Shown one piece after another: positions 29,260 to 36,801 of a stretch of 64,000 nucleotides of DNA (position 1 is its first letter; each line of letters begins with the position of its first letter). The notes beneath the pieces are model-generated. The model had not been told where the DNA came from. It searched no databases and saw nothing but the letters and a program-made list of their open reading frames with translations. The translations under genes and the position numbers were made by a program. Origin of the DNA: Leeia speluncae (lineage in GTDB: Bacteria; Pseudomonadota; Gammaproteobacteria; Burkholderiales; Leeiaceae); NCBI RefSeq assembly GCF_020564625.1, contig NZ_JAJBZT010000003.1:1-64000 (forward strand). The letters run 5' to 3'.

Positions 29260-29736
29260 ATGAGTAAAACCAACCCACGTGAAGTTACCCTTCGATTTTT
29301 AGCACAGCCAACCGATGTCAATTTTGGCGGTAAAGTGCATGGTGGGACAGTAATGAAATGGATTGACCAAGCAGGTTACGCCTGTGCCGTTGGTTGGAGT
29401 GGCCGCTATTGCGTCACCGTTTACGTAGGTGGTATTCGCTTTTATAAGCCGGTATTACTTGGCAGTATGGTTGAAGTCTCTGCACGTGTACTTTATACCG
29501 GCCGAACCAGTATGCACATTGCAGTAGACGTACAAGCGGGTGATTTAAAAGATGGTGAATTTAGCAAAACGACGCATTGCGTGATGGTATTTGTGGCAAC
29601 CAATGACCACGGCAACCCTACCCCAGTGCCTGAATGGGTGCCACACTCTGAGTCCGAACTAATTGACCATGCTTACGCCCAGCGTCTAATGGAGTTGCGT
29701 AAGGGGATTGAAGAAGAAATGGGCCAGCGCGTTTAA
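29260..29736 (+). CDS. Acyl-CoA thioesterase, hotdog fold (YciA/BFIT-like)
   Basis: 158 residues. It should hydrolyse acyl-CoA to free acid and CoA. The hotdog signature is clear: FGGKVHGGTVMKWIDQAGYACA (residues about 22-43) with the central helix and catalytic Asp, followed by VGGIRFYKPVLLGSMVEVSARV and HIAVDVQAGD. AGAGG lies about eight bases before the ATG at 29260. Chain-length preference cannot be read from sequence. It is convergent with the unknown operon that ends at 29769. Confidence 0.9.
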   Translation: MSKTNPREVTLRFLAQPTDVNFGGKVHGGTVMKWIDQAGYACAVGWSGRYCVTVYVGGIRFYKPVLLGSMVEVSARVLYTGRTSMHIAVDVQAGDLKDGEFSKTTHCVMVFVATNDHGNPTPVPEWVPHSESELIDHAYAQRLMELRKGIEEEMGQRV

Positions 29737-29768
29737 CCCCCTTCTTTCTGCAATTGAATAGAAGGCGA

Positions 29769-30257
29769 TTACTTCCCGTAGTAGCCTTCTAACCGCCTCA
29801 CAAGCGAATTCCCGTCTCTATCTACAATATCGGTCAACTGCCAACAACCGGATGCTTGCTGCACGGCATGCACGATACTGGTCCTATTCGTCTTTTGCGC
29901 ATCTGCTACGCCAAAACCAAAACGATAGCGAATCTTCACCGCAGCACTACCAACTTTGTTTGTCTGCTGATACGAGATAGGGGAATAAGCCTCGCCATCT
30001 TGGCCACCCGTCCAGATACTTGCATCAATGGCACAAACCTCTGACTTTGCGCATTGGCGTTCTTTTGCAAGCAGCTGATTCAGCGGTTTTGAGGCATTTG
30101 AATTTAACCACTTCACATTATCTAATAACGCATCTCCTTGCTGCCAAGCAGCTTTGGCAAATTCAAGTGCATTCATATATTGGCACGCCGCTTGCACAAC
30201 ACTAGGTAAGGAAAAGAAAACGATTAGCCCAATTAAACGATGATGAATGCGGATCAT
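29769..30257 (-). CDS. Small secreted protein of unknown function, last gene of the alkylation-repair/envelope operon
   Basis: 162 residues with a Sec signal peptide (LIGLIVFFSLPSVVQAA, cleavage near residue 24). I do not recognise the family. The mature part has four Cys (CQYMN, RQCAKSEVCAID, SGCWQL), so one or two disulfides are possible in the periplasm. The C-terminal half looks like a mixed alpha/beta domain (AAVKIRYRFGFG, GCWQLTDIVDRDGNSLVRRL) similar in style to small lumazine- or NTF2-like secreted domains, but that is only an impression. Its ATG overlaps the upstream gene's TGA by four bases (ATGA), indicating translational coupling. Confidence 0.75.
   Translation of the reverse strand: MIRIHHRLIGLIVFFSLPSVVQAACQYMNALEFAKAAWQQGDALLDNVKWLNSNASKPLNQLLAKERQCAKSEVCAIDASIWTGGQDGEAYSPISYQQTNKVGSAAVKIRYRFGFGVADAQKTNRTSIVHAVQQASGCWQLTDIVDRDGNSLVRRLEGYYGK
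30181..30196 (+). promoter_or_regulatory. Perfect sigma-54 -24/-12 consensus inside a coding region, antisense
   Basis: TGGCACGCCGCTTGCA matches TGGCACG-N4-TTGCA at every fixed position. It lies within the 162-residue gene but points the other way, toward the end of the 737-residue gene. It may be fortuitous, because the underlying codons read VQAACQ on the other strand. Confidence 0.3.
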
Positions 30258-32467
30258 GCATTATCTTTCACTGAATTACGGCTGTTAGTCGTTTTTACTT
30301 TTCTACGTTTAACCAGCCAAATAGCACATAAAGTAACACCAACCACAGCTAGGGCGATCAACCATGCGTAATGTCGAATCCAATGTTTGGTAGATATCCA
30401 ATATTGGGTTTGAATCATTTTATTTGCACGTTCAAACTCAGGCTCAGGGCAATTCGAGCCAAATTGGGCACCCCAACTAACATAAGCGCCGTTCGTTAGG
30501 TAGGTGCGGTATAACGCTGCCGCCATTACCTCATCCTTGCCCATCCAGCTTGCCGCACGGCAAAGCACTGCCGCATACGCTTGGGAACGCTGAGGAAGCT
30601 CATTCGCGGCTTGTTTAGCTAAATCGACAGCGAGATAGCGATAGTGATATGCATTCGATTGCTTGGGCGCTGTTTGGATATATCGTGCAACCTCGGTGGC
30701 TGTACTTGGTTTATCTTGCTTAGGATCATTGTTATGCATCCAGAAAAAATTGCCCCCTGAAGAAAACTGATCTGGAAATAGTTCATATCCCATCATTTCC
30801 ATACCATGCTGACGCGCCAAGACTGCCGCCTTGAATAAGGCTTCTGAGCGGCCAACTCTGGTCCAGGCTGAGTTTGCCTCAGAAAGTGCGTCGGCATAGG
30901 CCTTTACATGTTCAGTGATTTCTTGGTCTGCAAAACGATAATCGCCTTTTTGATGAAAATAAGGGAGCGACTCTTCATAGCGCTCTTCCCTTACTAATCG
31001 TCGTGCTAATAAATCGCGTAATTGCGCATTCGTATTCGTTGCAGGCCATTCTGTCTCCGCATCGGGTTCTGCGTAAATCGAGCCATCGCTGGCCTTGCTT
31101 GTTTTAGGTAACGCAGGAACAGAGACATGCTGATCAACAAATGATTTAAGCTCATCAACCGTCACGACACGCTCTGCCACATAGGCTAGATCTAACCAGT
31201 AAACCTTTCCTACTCTATACAATTGCGCAAGCGCATTGGTATATTCACCACGAGTTAAATTTAGCAACCCTTCTTCGCTCTTTGCCTGCATCGCACTGCC
31301 AAAACGGTTGCCAGACGTCTCGCTTGGAAATGCAGGAATCGCTTTGGCGTACCACGCTGCCGCACTACGGGTATCACCATTTCTTTGTGCTAACTTCGCT
31401 TTCACCCACGCGGCAGTTGCTGTATCACTCTTTTGGGCGAGTTTTACGGCCGTATCAAACCGGCCAGCGTTATAAGCAACAGCGGCCAACTTGTCTGCAT
31501 AGGCAAAATGCTGCACGCCTGCTTTTTCAGCCGCGGAAATAAGGTTAAGTAATGGAGACCCCTTGGCTTTTAAATCCGAGAAATCAAACTTTTCAGCATT
31601 AAACAATTGCTCTTCTCGCAGCCGATCTGCACTTAAATTTAAAACATAAATACTTAGTAAGCGCTGAACGGCGGGGGTCTTGATTTGTTCCGAAAGCAAT
31701 TGCTCATTGCTTAAAATATCACTTGCGATTTGCTTTAATGACGAGAGACCAGAAGCATCGCCATAAGCGGCTTGCAGAGCATATAAACGAATCGCCTCTG
31801 TATATTTGCCCACATTTAAAAAGAGTTTGGCATCTTCTCCGACACTAGAAATAGCCAACCCTAGCGGATCATGCCCATTGGCTTCTGCGAGTTGTCTCGT
31901 CTTACTAAAATGAGCGGATGCGCCTTTTTCATCACCATTTAAGAGCGCAATCTTCCCTAACATATAGGTTGCCCATACCGCTCGAGATATTGCCTCTTTG
32001 GCAGGTAACGCTAAGATAGACTCGAAATAGTGCTTCGCTTCATCGTGATGCGGATCGGTAGCGGCGGGACGCGCATAGGCAACTGCACCAGCAGTGTATA
32101 ACCGAATAGCAAGCGGTAACGATTGACCAATCCTTTCCGCTTCTTTTGCGTTAGCCGCCATCCGCATTTGGATGATGATTTTTTTATCTCTGGCGGCTAG
32201 ATCTTGTTGCTCTGCCTGAATGGTCTCACTATCGCCCACTATTTTTTCTTTGATGTATACATACTCAAAAGATTTGGCGATGGGCAGACGTTGCTTCTCA
32301 ACATCTTTGACCATTAGATTCACTTCATCGTTAAAACTATTCCCAATCGGCGCTGTTAATGTGCCCTGCCGATTAGCAAGTAAACTACGAAAATCTGGGC
32401 CGCATGCCCAGACTGTAATGGCAGAAACTAAAATTGTGATGGAGAACCATTTTTTACTGAGAAACAT
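30254..32467 (-). CDS. Large repeat-rich, membrane-anchored protein of unknown function
   Basis: 737 residues. The N-terminal signal (WFSITILVSAITVWACGPDF) ends at a Cys that is a non-standard lipobox (VWAC). There is a C-terminal transmembrane helix (YAWLIALAVVGVTLCAIWLV, about 705-725) with basic residues after it, so the bulk should be periplasmic. The body is helical and Ala-rich with several TPR/Sel1-like helical pairs (ARPAATDPHHDEAKHYFESI, AGRFDTAVKLAQKS, GDTRSAAAWYAKAIP, EERYEESLPYFHQKGD), suggesting a scaffold. It overlaps the upstream lipoprotein gene by 14 bases and the downstream gene by four. I do not recognise a named family. Confidence 0.8.
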   Translation of the reverse strand: MFLSKKWFSITILVSAITVWACGPDFRSLLANRQGTLTAPIGNSFNDEVNLMVKDVEKQRLPIAKSFEYVYIKEKIVGDSETIQAEQQDLAARDKKIIIQMRMAANAKEAERIGQSLPLAIRLYTAGAVAYARPAATDPHHDEAKHYFESILALPAKEAISRAVWATYMLGKIALLNGDEKGASAHFSKTRQLAEANGHDPLGLAISSVGEDAKLFLNVGKYTEAIRLYALQAAYGDASGLSSLKQIASDILSNEQLLSEQIKTPAVQRLLSIYVLNLSADRLREEQLFNAEKFDFSDLKAKGSPLLNLISAAEKAGVQHFAYADKLAAVAYNAGRFDTAVKLAQKSDTATAAWVKAKLAQRNGDTRSAAAWYAKAIPAFPSETSGNRFGSAMQAKSEEGLLNLTRGEYTNALAQLYRVGKVYWLDLAYVAERVVTVDELKSFVDQHVSVPALPKTSKASDGSIYAEPDAETEWPATNTNAQLRDLLARRLVREERYEESLPYFHQKGDYRFADQEITEHVKAYADALSEANSAWTRVGRSEALFKAAVLARQHGMEMMGYELFPDQFSSGGNFFWMHNNDPKQDKPSTATEVARYIQTAPKQSNAYHYRYLAVDLAKQAANELPQRSQAYAAVLCRAASWMGKDEVMAAALYRTYLTNGAYVSWGAQFGSNCPEPEFERANKMIQTQYWISTKHWIRHYAWLIALAVVGVTLCAIWLVKRRKVKTTNSRNSVKDNA

Positions 32468-33695
32468 GCAGTTCGAAACCTAAGGATGAAGAAGACGGCA
32501 TTGAACACCTAGCCCATCCAATCACTTTCAAAGCACCGGGGGCCACCACTCCCATATCATGACGATTAAATATAAAATTATCTACCCCATTGATCATCTG
32601 ATAACCATTTAAACCATCTGCTTGCGAACAACTTGCTGGTAGGGTAATGGATTCAGGTAATTCAGCATCGACGCCGCCTTGGTTAGATAGCACCACATCA
32701 AATAAATCATTCTGCTTGGTTGGCTTTAACGTTGCACCTAACATGGCAGTTAAAGGCTCGCCTTTGACTACTGCTTTAAGGGTGCTTAACCGCCAAGCAC
32801 GCGCATCTTGATCGGTTGGTAATCGAAACCAAACCACCCCTTTTAAGTGTTGCCAGTTTCGTTTAGATAAATCGAATAAAAATTGCTGCAAGGCTTGTGG
32901 CTTTGCCATCCACTCTTGTGAGTAAGCGCCATTCGCTAATAGCGTAGCTTCGCTCTCCACGCCAGCTAAGTTACCCGCTTCATCCCAAATAATTTTAGAG
33001 CCGTAACTTGGCAATGCTAAGCGGAAATTACCCGCGGTGATCTGATCGAATTTTTTTGCCCACGCAATGGCATCTTCCGTATTAAATAGTCCTCTACTTG
33101 GCCCTTGCACGGCATGTACTTGTAACACCATTTCGTCAGGAATTTGGGTAAGTGGATATAGGTCTTTAGCATCCAACCAAGCAGGTAACGCAGTAATTGA
33201 AAGCGTCGTATTTTTGGGTAGTTTTGTTTTTAACGCGCGCAAGAAAGTGGCATAACCCGCTAGAGACTTCACACCACAATCATAATCAATCTCTACCCCC
33301 GAAAACACCGCCCCATCTTGCCGCAAGGAGGCTAACCTTGCGCGCAAACGTTCAATCAGTAACCCCGTATCTAATTCTGCAATTCGACCATCAATTCGAA
33401 AAACAGCAATGGCTGGCACCTGAGTTTGCTTGAGGGAGATAGGATGGATTTGTATCTCTTTCCAGTCTCCTGAAGGAGAGATTTCTGACACCAACACCCG
33501 CCAATGCTGAAAACTATCTTTTCCGTTTTGAATAGATGCCAACAATCCTGGTGTCCATTTGTGCTGCCAAATATAGACATCCGAAGGCAAGATTGCGTGT
33601 TCTTGGGTATTTTGTTGCTGACAGCCAATTAGCAGCAATAGCAGTCCCAAAAACGCGCACAATCCGCGAACGCGTTTCCAACATTGCAGCAGCAC
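32454..33695 (-). CDS. DUF3142-family lipoprotein
   Basis: About 413 residues. The signal is a clear lipoprotein type: basic KRVR, hydrophobic LGLLLLLI, lipobox LIGC. The body fits DUF3142, with a TIM-barrel-like run YDCGVKSLAGYATFLRAL, LSITALPAWL and DEMVLQVHAVQG, resembling the fold of glycoside hydrolases of unknown substrate. The longest frame starts at 33764, but GTG at 33695 overlaps the eamA stop as TAGTG and gives an ideal lipoprotein signal, so this start is chosen. It would be anchored in the outer or inner membrane facing the periplasm. It is coupled to eamA upstream and the 737-residue gene downstream. Confidence 0.82.
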   Translation of the reverse strand: MLLQCWKRVRGLCAFLGLLLLLIGCQQQNTQEHAILPSDVYIWQHKWTPGLLASIQNGKDSFQHWRVLVSEISPSGDWKEIQIHPISLKQTQVPAIAVFRIDGRIAELDTGLLIERLRARLASLRQDGAVFSGVEIDYDCGVKSLAGYATFLRALKTKLPKNTTLSITALPAWLDAKDLYPLTQIPDEMVLQVHAVQGPSRGLFNTEDAIAWAKKFDQITAGNFRLALPSYGSKIIWDEAGNLAGVESEATLLANGAYSQEWMAKPQALQQFLFDLSKRNWQHLKGVVWFRLPTDQDARAWRLSTLKAVVKGEPLTAMLGATLKPTKQNDLFDVVLSNQGGVDAELPESITLPASCSQADGLNGYQMINGVDNFIFNRHDMGVVAPGALKVIGWARCSMPSSSSLGFELHVSQ

Positions 33696-34582
33696 TAGGC
33701 AGCTCGCTTTCCAAGGCGAATAAACCCAGTGCTTAATGCGGTACCCGCCAAAATAATTAAGCACCCTAGCACCATGTTAAAGGTAGGCGTTTCTTGTAGG
33801 AACAAACCACCCCATAGCACGCCAAAAACAGGAATTAAATAGGTCACCGCAATCGCTTTGCTTGGTCCGACGTTTTGTAATAGTCGGAAGAAAATAATAT
33901 AAGCAGTTCCTGTACACGCAATCCCAAGTACTACAGCAGAAATCCATGCCTGATGGCCAGGCACGACCGAAGGCCAATTGAGAAAGGCCGCAGGTAATAT
34001 CAGTAAAGTAGATGCTAATTGGCTTCCCGCCGCCAAGGTGAGTGAGTTCACACCGGTCAGAAACTTTTTGGTATAGCTAGCAGCAATACCATAACACAGC
34101 GTTGCGGCTAAAGCTGCCGGAATCGCCAATGCCTCGCCACCGGATTGCCAATGTAATTTATGCCAAACCAACACCAAAATCCCCACAAACCCGACCAGTA
34201 GACCAATTACTCGGCTAGCGGATAAACGATCGCCCAACCAAACCCAAGCGACAATCGCCCCCCATAGTGGCGCGGTCGCATTTAACATAGAACCAAATCC
34301 ACCCGTCACATATTGCAAGGCGTAGGCAAGTAGGCAAAAAGGAAGAGCGGTATTAAAAATAGCCATCACCCCAATACTTTTCCAACGCTGCCGGATGACA
34401 CGAAGCTCGCTAGTCCCGGTTTTATAAAGTAATAAAGGAAGTAAAAATAAAGTCGCCACCAATACACGCATAAAAATCAGCGCTAATGGACCAAACTCCG
34501 GCACGGCCTGGCGCATAAAGATAAAAGAAGCCCCCCATAAGGCAGCTAAAATTAACAGATCACGTACATCATTGATTTTCAT
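33695..34582 (-). CDS. EamA/DMT-family transporter
   Basis: 295 residues with about ten transmembrane helices in two homologous EamA halves. Telltale segments are LAALWGASFIFMRQAVPEFGPL at the start, NTALPFCLLAYALQYVTGGFGSMLNATAPLWGA, and LIPVFGVLWGGLFLQETPTFNMVLGCLIILAG in the second half. It is an inner-membrane drug/metabolite transporter, probably an exporter of unknown substrate. It begins 15 bases after ogt and its stop overlaps the next gene's start (TAGTG), so it is embedded in the operon. Confidence 0.9.
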   Translation of the reverse strand: MKINDVRDLLILAALWGASFIFMRQAVPEFGPLALIFMRVLVATLFLLPLLLYKTGTSELRVIRQRWKSIGVMAIFNTALPFCLLAYALQYVTGGFGSMLNATAPLWGAIVAWVWLGDRLSASRVIGLLVGFVGILVLVWHKLHWQSGGEALAIPAALAATLCYGIAASYTKKFLTGVNSLTLAAGSQLASTLLILPAAFLNWPSVVPGHQAWISAVVLGIACTGTAYIIFFRLLQNVGPSKAIAVTYLIPVFGVLWGGLFLQETPTFNMVLGCLIILAGTALSTGFIRLGKRAA

Positions 34583-34597
34583 TTTGTCGACTTTTGA

Positions 34598-35098
34598 TTA
34601 TGGATTCATCCAGTCCATTTGAAATGGACGATTGTTTTCTAAAGCAAGCAGTGCAGCCTTACGATCTACCCCACCCGCATAGCCAGTCAGCGCACCATTA
34701 CTGCCAATCACACGGTGACAAGGCACCACTAAGGAAATTGGATTTTTTCCTACCGCATTTGCCACTGCACGCACCCCACTACTTTTTCCACAGCGATCAG
34801 CTAGCTGCTGATAAGACCATGTTTCACCAAATGGAATCGCTAATAATTGCGCCCACACTATTTTCTGAAAATCAGTGCCTTCCAATGCTAAGGGCAAATC
34901 AAAGGTTGATAACGTACCTTGAAAATAAGCAGTAAGCGACTTCTTTGCTTCCAATAACAATGGCGATACACCTAACTTAGCTGGGTCTGGTGTTCGACCA
35001 TATTTTTGTGGGATAAAATAAATTCCCACAATCGCGCCCTGTCGTTCACAAACCAGCATCTCACCAAGCGGAGACTGAATGACTAATTGCGTTTCCAT
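34598..35098 (-). CDS. ogt: Methylated-DNA--protein-cysteine methyltransferase
   Basis: 166 residues. It removes O6-alkyl groups from guanine by transferring them irreversibly to its own Cys. The active site PCHRVIGSNGALTGYAGG is intact, and the DNA-binding helix region (GETWSYQQLADRCGKSSGVRAVANAVGKNPISLVVPC) is standard for Ogt/AGT. Its start overlaps the ada-alkA stop (TAATG), so the two repair proteins are translated together. Because the upstream protein lacks an AGT domain, this gene supplies the methyltransferase half that Ada carries in E. coli. Confidence 0.95.
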   Translation of the reverse strand: METQLVIQSPLGEMLVCERQGAIVGIYFIPQKYGRTPDPAKLGVSPLLLEAKKSLTAYFQGTLSTFDLPLALEGTDFQKIVWAQLLAIPFGETWSYQQLADRCGKSSGVRAVANAVGKNPISLVVPCHRVIGSNGALTGYAGGVDRKAALLALENNRPFQMDWMNP

Positions 35099-36579
35099 TA
35101 CACAGACTCCTTAGCCATCAACAATGAAATGGGCTGATCTGAAACTGCGTTTGCTTGCCAAATTGCCCACATAGCAAATACCAAATAGCTTCGCCATGGT
35201 CTGAAATTCGCAGCCCACTTGATACGCTCTCCCGTTGTTGTGTCTGGTAGTAATTTTTTAATCACGTAATCATCTTCTAAAAACACATCTGGCGATTGCC
35301 ATGCACGTAATGCAATATAACCGGCCGTCCACGGACCAATACCCGGCAAAGCCAATAAGTTTGTTATCGCCAGATTAACGTCTACAACGTTATCTAACTC
35401 CAACTCACCGGCCACTACCGCATTCGATAGAGCCCAAATAGCCCTCGCCTTCGTGCGCGATAACCCCAGCGCCCGCCACTCGTCTTCTGACACCGCACTT
35501 AAGCGAGAGGGTGTTGGAAATAAATGTGTCAGCTTTTCTGTTAAAGAGACTGGTTCACCAAAGTTAGCCACCATTTTTTCGATAATTCTTCTTGCTGCTT
35601 CGGTGCTAATCACTTGTTCGATAATGCTCCGGATAGCCACTTCATAGCCACTAACGGCACCAGGTACACGAATCGTCTCGATAGAACAATTTAACAAGGT
35701 TAAGACTTCATTAATCGCATGTGGGTCCGCATCCAAGTCGAATTGTCGTCTCACCAATTGCAAGACTTGCATCACCGCAGGTAACAGCGACTCGGACAAA
35801 TAAACAAAAATCTTCTGCTTATTCTCACTTATCTCTAACCGATACCATCCAATTAGTGGCTTTCCTTGACAAAGAATAGCCAAGGTTCTTTCATATACCG
35901 TTTCGTCAACATACTCCAGCCCGGCAATTTGCCTTTTCTGCCAAAATTCCATGACTTGCGAAATAGGATACGGTGCTCGGTAGCTTAATTCGAAACGTTG
36001 CGCATCTACTTGCGCAGTGATTTGCCGCGCGTCTTTTCTAAGCGAGGTAGGTGTTAAGCGATATTTATCGACAAATACCTCATTAAATCGCCTCAAACTG
36101 CCAAAACCAGCACACAAAGCAATTTGCGCCATCGGTAAAGCCGTATCCATTAACAAACGTTTAGCCAGTAATAAACGTTGCGATTGGGCATATGCTATTG
36201 GAGATACCCCAAAAGTTTGTTCAAACAACCGCCTTAAATGCCTATCTGACACGCCTAAGCGCTTTGCCAAGCCTGCACAGCCATATTGGTCTAAGTAGCC
36301 TTGAGCAATTAGGCATGTCGCAACTTGGATTAATCGATTTTGGCTTAAATAACTTAAATTATTAGGGGCCAGTTCTGGTCGACAGCGTAAACAAGGCCGA
36401 TACCCTGCTGATTCCGCAGCAGCAGCATTAGAAAAAAAGACGCAATTTTCTGGTTTTGGTGTTTTTACTCGGCAGATAGGACGGCAATAAATGCCTGTAG
36501 AAGTGACAGCCACATAAAAGGAGCCATCAAAGCGCGCATCTCTTGCGAGTAAGGCACGATAATAATCTTGATGTTCCAC
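35098..36579 (-). CDS. Ada-AlkA fusion: methylphosphotriester-sensing regulator plus 3-methyladenine DNA glycosylase II
   Basis: 493 residues. The Ada zinc domain (residues 1-80) has its four Cys in GIYCRPICRVK and YRPCLRCRPE, of which the first accepts methyl groups from DNA phosphotriesters. An AraC-type helix-turn-helix follows (about 85-185: GCAGLAKRLGVSDRHLRRLFEQTFG, AQIALCAGFGSLRRFNEVF). Then come an AlkA N-terminal domain and an HhH-GPD glycosylase domain (LPGIGPWTAGYIALRAW; catalytic Asp near VFLEDDYV). It should sense alkylation, activate its own operon and excise alkylated bases. It is the first gene of a six-gene minus-strand run. No obvious E. coli-like Ada box was found upstream. 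Confidence 0.92.
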   Translation of the reverse strand: MEHQDYYRALLARDARFDGSFYVAVTSTGIYCRPICRVKTPKPENCVFFSNAAAAESAGYRPCLRCRPELAPNNLSYLSQNRLIQVATCLIAQGYLDQYGCAGLAKRLGVSDRHLRRLFEQTFGVSPIAYAQSQRLLLAKRLLMDTALPMAQIALCAGFGSLRRFNEVFVDKYRLTPTSLRKDARQITAQVDAQRFELSYRAPYPISQVMEFWQKRQIAGLEYVDETVYERTLAILCQGKPLIGWYRLEISENKQKIFVYLSESLLPAVMQVLQLVRRQFDLDADPHAINEVLTLLNCSIETIRVPGAVSGYEVAIRSIIEQVISTEAARRIIEKMVANFGEPVSLTEKLTHLFPTPSRLSAVSEDEWRALGLSRTKARAIWALSNAVVAGELELDNVVDVNLAITNLLALPGIGPWTAGYIALRAWQSPDVFLEDDYVIKKLLPDTTTGERIKWAANFRPWRSYLVFAMWAIWQANAVSDQPISLLMAKESV

Positions 36580-36727
36580 AGTCTGCTCCGCTACAACAAT
36601 GAAACCTGAGCTTACAGCAAAGTAGAAGTCGAAGCTCGCGGAAAACGGACATAGATATTTTTCAGTTTAGAAAAATAGAAAACACTATATTGCTGGAAAA
36701 ATTTGGAAGTTTTTGAGAGATTTTTTT

Positions 36728-36801
36728 TGGAGGCGGAGGCCGGAATCGAACCGGCATAGACGGATTTGCAATCCGCTGCATAACCATTTTGCTACCCCGC
36801 C
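36728..36801 (-). tRNA. tRNA-Cys (anticodon GCA)
   Basis: 74-nt cloverleaf: acceptor GGCGGGG with CTCCGCC, anticodon GCA in TTGCAAA, encoded CCA. It is last in the Gly-Gly-Cys unit. Confidence 0.96.

Follow-up and report, generated by a model that had tools for sequence, protein, structure and literature searches.

The window analysed here was a 64,000-nucleotide stretch at the start of contig NZ_JAJBZT010000003.1 of Leeia speluncae (genome G000; 3.78 Mb in 48 contigs), in which six genes ran on the minus strand from 36579 to 29769, headed by a gene for a fused Ada-AlkA alkylation-repair protein. Direct reading of the sequence placed all six open reading frames (ORFs), and the overlaps between them, where the original prediction had put them. 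ada-alkA (35098..36579; 493 amino acids) began with GTG and ended in a TAATG common to the start of ogt (34598..35098; 166 amino acids), and 15 bases separated ogt from eamA (33695..34582; 295 amino acids), encoding an EamA/DMT-family transporter. TAGTG was common to eamA and the gene for a 413-residue DUF3142 lipoprotein (32454..33695), whose GTG start at 33695 gave a 1-base overlap; a longer ORF beginning at 33764 extended into eamA, and 33764 is therefore not a likely start. The lipoprotein gene ended at 32454, 14 bases into an ORF starting at 32467 for a 737-residue exported tetratricopeptide repeat (TPR) solenoid protein with a C-terminal membrane helix (30254..32467). Its stop codon, ending at 30254, shared ATGA with the start (30257) of the last gene, encoding a secreted protein of 162 amino acids (29769..30257). 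As overlapping genes are common in themselves, the role of chance was judged by conservation in relatives. This comparison made it probable that Ada-AlkA, Ogt and EamA form a core under one methylation-responsive promoter, and that the DUF3142 and TPR genes sit behind eamA as an independent unit.

Ada-AlkA combined the domains of a sensor-activator with those of a 3-methyladenine glycosylase. Its Zn domain (PF02805, E 9.2e-31) held Cys32, Cys36, Cys63 and Cys66 in a C-x3-C ... C-x2-C pattern, the cysteine spacing of Escherichia coli Ada, and was followed by an AraC-type helix-turn-helix (HTH) region (PF12833, HTH_18, E 7.5e-23). The AlkA part comprised AlkA_N (PF06029) and HhH-GPD (PF00730) domains and the stretch FLEDDYVIKK, which presumably holds the catalytic Asp. 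Ogt, the O6-methylguanine methyltransferase, matched PF01035 (E 7.1e-33), PF02870 and TIGR00589, and contained the PCHR active site with its acceptor cysteine within VVPCHRVIG. EamA matched PF00892 in two repeats (158 bits versus a cut-off of 28.2); four NCBIfam equivalog models scored to place its substrate group all fell far below cut-off (e.g. 84.7 versus 230.2). The prediction of an Ada-type sensor-activator in the first gene thus held, with its domains found and a conserved operator and promoter in front: such a protein heads the operon and, by analogy, would activate its own transcription upon methylation. A search of 100 relatives gave 20 strong Ada-AlkA matches, the window's own included, that began in the Zn domain and extended as far as the AlkA part (L039-L058), and larger regions were examined around 16 of the 19 matches in other genomes (L071, L072, L077-L090). 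Ogt adjoined Ada-AlkA in 15 of these 16 regions, and an eamA gene of the window type lay inside the cluster in seven, in the order ada-ogt-eamA (L071, L072, L083, L084, L085) or eamA-ada-ogt (L077, L078). On this comparison, ada-alkA, ogt and eamA are an old association.

Upstream of ada-alkA lay an operator-like site, ATGTCCGTTTTCCGCGAGC (36634..36652, minus strand), identical in the sister genome G002 and present mostly as ATGTCCGAAAACGGCnAGC in the other upstream regions compared. The site preceded the first gene in 16 of 17 clusters, the window included, each time scoring above all 50 shuffles of its own region in a leave-one-out test with a position weight matrix. For the window the score was 18.0 versus a shuffle maximum of 8.0, a result in which the identical window and G002 sites each help the other. 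Using a matrix of 14 sites from in front of Ada-AlkA, loci outside the matrix scored 27.2 and 26.7 (L053), 30.6 (L057), 23.0 (L058) and 24.3 (L061); no site of at least 11 was found in L055 (G042), in L059, whose upstream part lies off the contig, or in L060, which matches the AlkA part only. None of the seven loci matching only the Ada Zn/HTH part (L062-L068) had an operator-grade site, the single match among them scoring 11.8. The operator also accompanied eamA in rearranged clusters. Where eamA came first (G033 and G077; L077, L078), it preceded eamA (29.2 and 26.5) and not ada-alkA, and where eamA and ada-alkA were divergent (G060, G103, G210), all three genomes had two back-to-back operators, one per gene (L053 1150-1400; L101 1440-1600; L102 1440-1600). 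An exact-pattern search across 250 genomes of the order returned 13 matches in 13 genomes, compared with one for a backward control. Twelve directly preceded Ada-AlkA, and the 13th (G053, L097) was at a contig end in a genome in which Ada-AlkA residues 115-477 were matched at the start of another contig; four of the 13 genomes (G017, G023, G024, G078) had also supplied matrix sites. Within the window genome, the 18-bp pattern occurred as a single perfect copy and one copy that differed at two positions; the control pattern, allowed up to two mismatches, matched four times.

A -10-like box, TAAGCT (36609..36614, minus strand), followed the operator by 19 nt. The same distance to an NAnnnT element was found at 28 of 30 sites and 18 nt at the remaining two (L079, L080), and no other offset between 5 and 30 occurred at more than 3 of the 30, a set that leaves out L061 and in which several genomes are close kin. 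Such a layout is typical of an activator that binds across the -35 element. In E. coli Ada, F114, H115 and R118 contact the B box, according to the accessible text of PMC3788762. The counterpart stretch in the window, SDRHLRRLF, contains RHLRR, which was present in 12 of 16 relatives and absent as a pattern from four; with positions paired to E. coli by eye, it fits a changed operator. The canonical Ada box, given in the accessible text of the same paper as AAT or ATT, N6, GCAA, was rejected as the shared element: it was present in 3 of 17 upstream regions, the window among them, with about 1.6 expected from shuffles. We found no earlier description of the operator in the open PubMed Central (PMC) literature, where the string TGTCCGAAAA occurs in papers none of which has Ada as its subject by title.

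The DUF3142 lipoprotein (PF11340, E 2.6e-60; 204 bits versus a gathering score of 30) and its neighbour had a different distribution. The 737-residue protein gave only sub-threshold TPR matches in the domain searches. We compared 30 further DUF3142 loci with flanks of up to 6 kb (some contigs being shorter), from Herbaspirillum, Achromobacter, Bordetella, Paraburkholderia, Dyella, Luteibacter, Reyranella and other proteobacteria; a TPR gene followed in 28, the exceptions being L025 and L029. Where both ends could be read, 19 of 25 loci had the same 14-nt overlap between the two genes as the window (32454-32467), spanning alpha-, beta- and gammaproteobacteria (L002, L004-L015, L018, L019, L023, L027, L028, L030), and the other six had stop-to-start distances of +13, +89, -1, +1, +1 and -4; starts were taken as the nearest ATG or GTG, and several loci are close kin. 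Since the overlap was kept from alpha- to gammaproteobacteria, it points to translational coupling of a real pair. None of the 30 loci held Ogt or EamA at E <=1e-3 (one Ogt match in L007 had E 0.26) or Ada-AlkA proper, the AraC-type HTH region alone being matched in seven. The original prediction had tied the lipoprotein, TPR and secreted proteins to the repair genes, and this link was not supported: DUF3142 lay away from ada-alkA and ogt in all 30 loci, an outcome that the prediction itself had named as refuting it, and no member of the trio was found in the 16 Ada-AlkA regions of relatives at E <=1e-4. The operator did not follow the pair either. Across 33 DUF3142 loci the only match of at least 13 was in L019 (14.9), about 3 kb behind DUF3142, compared with 21.3 for the window site; a second matrix gave 13.0 in L004 and 13.3 in L028, and a weak DUF3142 relative outside the 33 (G111, L076) had a match of 15.5, apparently within its own reading frame. 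Of 200 genomes of the order, five had DUF3142 itself, counting the window genome and the weak G111 relative. Judged by their neighbourhoods, the DUF3142 and TPR genes form a two-gene envelope unit of their own.

The same separation was seen close to home, in a same-family comparison of three genomes of one genus (G000, G001 and G002). G002 had the gene order of the window, with uvrC, pgsA, two tRNA-Gly genes, tRNA-Cys, ada-alkA, ogt, eamA, a convergent thioesterase gene, a potF-like gene and lysR. Its eamA and thioesterase stops were 64 bp apart, a stretch containing a hairpin (by eye), compared with 3,958 bp and three envelope genes in the window, and a DUF3142 search of G002 gave no match. 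G001 carried both units on one contig, with about 125 kb between ada-ogt-eamA and DUF3142-TPR. These loci bear directly on the proposal of a single alkylation response made up of all six genes, with the envelope proteins serving to shield the envelope or to expel methylating agents. The genes are contiguous with overlaps, have no clear internal promoter and follow a single operator, all of which would suit such a response; the trio-free syntenic locus, the unlinked pair in G001, the DUF3142 loci without repair genes and the want of an operator-grade match at them nevertheless make it improbable, and relatives do not indicate a shared function of envelope and repair genes. What stood of the proposed joint response was its export arm, a fair idea for EamA since the transporter gene stays with this operator even in relatives whose clusters are rearranged. 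As a separate observation, G002 had 112 bp between ogt and eamA (L071 7550-7663), within which TTTCCGTTTGAGTCATAGC resembled a worn operator by eye.

Several points weigh against an Ada-AlkA/Ogt/EamA core with an independent envelope pair behind it. The operator was recognized from its conservation, and Ada-AlkA is its presumed binder. The cluster of G042 (L089), left out of every matrix, had no operator by score, and matches of at least 18 also occurred away from first-gene sites (19.5 in L058, 18.9 in L071). A Pseudomonas putida-type box, ATT-N6-GCAA, lay on the operon strand at 36690-36702, about 40 bp upstream of the operator; because canonical boxes were so rare among the upstream regions and this one was not conserved at its position in G002, it may work in the window without being the shared element. 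The cluster lacked EamA in 9 of the 16 Ada-AlkA regions, and G039 and G050 held further EamA relatives outside it (E 3.4e-47, 7.5e-31 and 4.0e-39). EamA carriers are abundant, a single genome (G002) having as many as 11 EamA-like matches, and together with these gaps this could suggest that the link to ada-alkA is a chance of neighbourhood. We consider this very improbable, as eamA stood behind its own or a shared operator, with the 19-nt spacing, in three gene arrangements. With the window EamA as query in 16 chosen genomes, its own included, the best match was moreover the clustered or divergent copy in 10 of 10 (G001, G002, G023, G033, G039, G050, G060, G077, G103, G210). The three relatives outside clusters (two in G039, one in G050) had no comparable operator, the best score being 10.7, behind the gene, with nothing of at least 9 at the other two. 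Ada-AlkA genomes without a clustered eamA had weak paralogues only (best E 6.9e-13; G017, G024, G030, G070, G083), a count that covers five of the nine regions lacking it. EamA is thus very probably a genuine member of an Ada-type regulon, as judged from gene order and operator placement.

For the envelope genes, the 1-base overlap of eamA and DUF3142 and the lack of a clear promoter or terminator separating them fit co-transcription and perhaps a coupling selected in this lineage. With no convincing promoter or terminator there, read-through is possible in this strain, and damage induction of the envelope genes by that route is accordingly a possibility suggested by the layout. The envelope genes might instead use their own promoter inside eamA, so that their place in the operon would be only apparent. 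A 9-of-12 sigma-70-like match at 33780-33753 could serve, but promoter-like matches were no commoner between 29500 and 37300 than in shuffles (8 found versus 12.2), placing it at chance level and leaving this explanation rather unlikely; terminator-like matches over the same range were likewise 8 versus 9.9. A DUF3142 tree of 29 rows (the window, 25 of the 30 loci without L007, L008, L009, L023 and L029, and three relatives) was poorly resolved with long branches and left gain in G000 versus loss in G002 unpolarised. The GC content of the trio, overall and at third codon positions (GC3), was similar to that of neighbouring genes, so a recent foreign origin is not indicated, and recent horizontal gain was dismissed as unsupported by composition. 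We nonetheless regard the repair-and-transport core followed by an independent envelope pair as the probable arrangement.

The catalytic motif of glycoside hydrolase family 18 (GH18) is DxxDxDxE, with the catalytic Glu on strand 4 of the barrel. The structure model of the DUF3142 lipoprotein (mean pLDDT 85.8, from a 29-row alignment) was a GH18-like TIM barrel whose best Foldseek match was SleL (E 4.6e-11), and VIA-align to SleL gave Z 22.1 and a root-mean-square deviation of 4.5 over 270 aligned residues at 12 to 14% identity. As the Z values of all rows shown lay within 1.5, no one GH18 member was singled out. A profile search matched part of the barrel (E 2.9e-11, to 8y6t) to TfeC from Yersinia pseudotuberculosis, a DUF3142 protein of known structure (8y6t, 9vtv) that is titled a chitinase. 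Strand 4 of the model (131-139) ended in GVEIDYD; the family reads GVEIDYDC here, and E135, D137 and D139 were unchanged across all 29 rows. The catalytic Glu of the GH18 motif was not found in it, invariant Asp139 standing in its place, and TfeC likewise has Asp at the acid position (IDFD). Since the Glu motif is lacking, the protein was not filed as a GH18 member, though it may still act alike, and the modelled fold makes a glycan-cutting or glycan-binding role likely. The TPR protein was modelled as an alpha solenoid (mean pLDDT 82.0) with a long C-terminal helix carrying a hydrophobic membrane stretch, and its N-terminus had a conserved, lipobox-like C22-G23-P24. A search for its fold in the Protein Data Bank was uninformative, returning generic solenoids only, with TM scores of at most 0.20 by query length among the rows shown.

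The 162-residue protein had no match in Pfam, NCBIfam or PADLOC, and was present in 2 of 150 genomes, its own included. The second copy (G099, L075 4893-5363) was a secreted protein of 156 amino acids with 29% identity, beside which no DUF3142 or TPR matches were found in L075, and none of the 30 DUF3142 loci held the protein at E <=1. By this distribution, the trio is a pair plus a near-orphan gene. A hairpin spanning the end of this last gene (29760..29790, minus strand) is a weak candidate for a terminator: the stretch 29735-29812 folded with a z-score of -2.68, equalled in 3 of 200 shuffles, but it had no clear T run and was not among the terminator-like matches listed for the region. Two further ideas were dropped. 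No anti-phage defence link emerged, as PADLOC gave no match for window proteins P0001, P0002, P0003 and P0006, and spread by plasmids found little in the plasmid records searched, with DUF3142 in five (one covering 88% of the protein, four less than 20%) and the 162-residue protein in none. At the other end of the locus, ada-alkA started about 150 bp (36579-36728) downstream of a tRNA-Gly-Gly-Cys operon, which had a perfect match to a sigma-70-like promoter at 37179-37152. With no terminator-like match listed between the two, read-through from the tRNA operon is conceivable. In G002, an additional ORF, named by eye as periplasmic-binding-like, lay between the tRNAs and ada-alkA.

In Ada, a Zn-domain cysteine accepts a methyl group from the damaged DNA backbone. 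By this chemistry, the Zn domain of Ada-AlkA would take a backbone methyl onto Cys32, and the methylated protein would bind 36634-36652, the end of which overlaps the -35 element, recruiting RNA polymerase to the -10 box. The resulting transcript would yield the AlkA glycosylase, the Ogt methyltransferase and the EamA carrier, which probably moves a small methylating compound, or a methylated product derived from a thiol or amino acid, across the inner membrane. Behind eamA sit the predicted GH18-like periplasmic lipoprotein and the membrane-anchored TPR scaffold, translationally coupled, with the near-orphan protein; in this strain, transcription from the Ada promoter may run on into their genes.

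Among the closest known systems is the Ada regulon of E. coli (ada-alkB, alkA, aidB), in which an Ada Zn/AraC-HTH sensor-activator governs methylated-base repair and likewise heads its own operon, according to the accessible text of PMC4437013. In the window, Ada is instead fused to AlkA, ogt is separate, alkB is missing from the operon and a carrier is added; the upstream site is of the ATGTCCGAAAACGGCnAGC type and not the AAT-N6-GCAA Ada box (PMC3788762, accessible text). In P. putida, alkA and ada share an operon with Ada-dependent induction by methyl methanesulfonate (MMS) and N-methyl-N'-nitro-N-nitrosoguanidine (MNNG), and the window has one ATT-N6-GCAA; the P. putida proteins are, however, two separate ones behind a canonical box, and the accessible text of that account does not mention EamA (PMC3788762). 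In the open PMC literature, EamA was not found in connection with ada, alkA or ogt among the matches listed, nor together with MMS, and DUF3142 was named in a single paper. TfeC shares with the window lipoprotein its DUF3142 family, GH18-like barrel and Asp at the acid position; the accessible text of a review describes it as an antifungal type VI secretion system effector (PMC13162877), whereas the window protein is a predicted lipoprotein with a coupled TPR partner. The best fold matches, GH18 chitinases and the spore-cortex lytic enzyme SleL, differ from the window protein by having the catalytic Glu that Asp139 replaces.

Bacteria are known to answer alkylation adaptively with a regulon of DNA-repair genes. 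We put forward, as an evenly balanced proposition, that in this proteobacterial order the regulon includes a dedicated EamA carrier under a previously undescribed Ada-AlkA operator, which would move a methylating agent or methylated product outward, and that in the lineage of the window the same promoter has also captured a glycan-processing envelope pair. A transporter under one operator across three gene arrangements suggests that some bacteria may also handle what causes the damage. This operator and the constant 19 nt between it and the -10 box could allow the regulon to be read in other genomes of the order, and the DUF3142-TPR pair, uncharacterised from alpha- to gammaproteobacteria, gains a predicted fold and a conserved 14-nt coupling.

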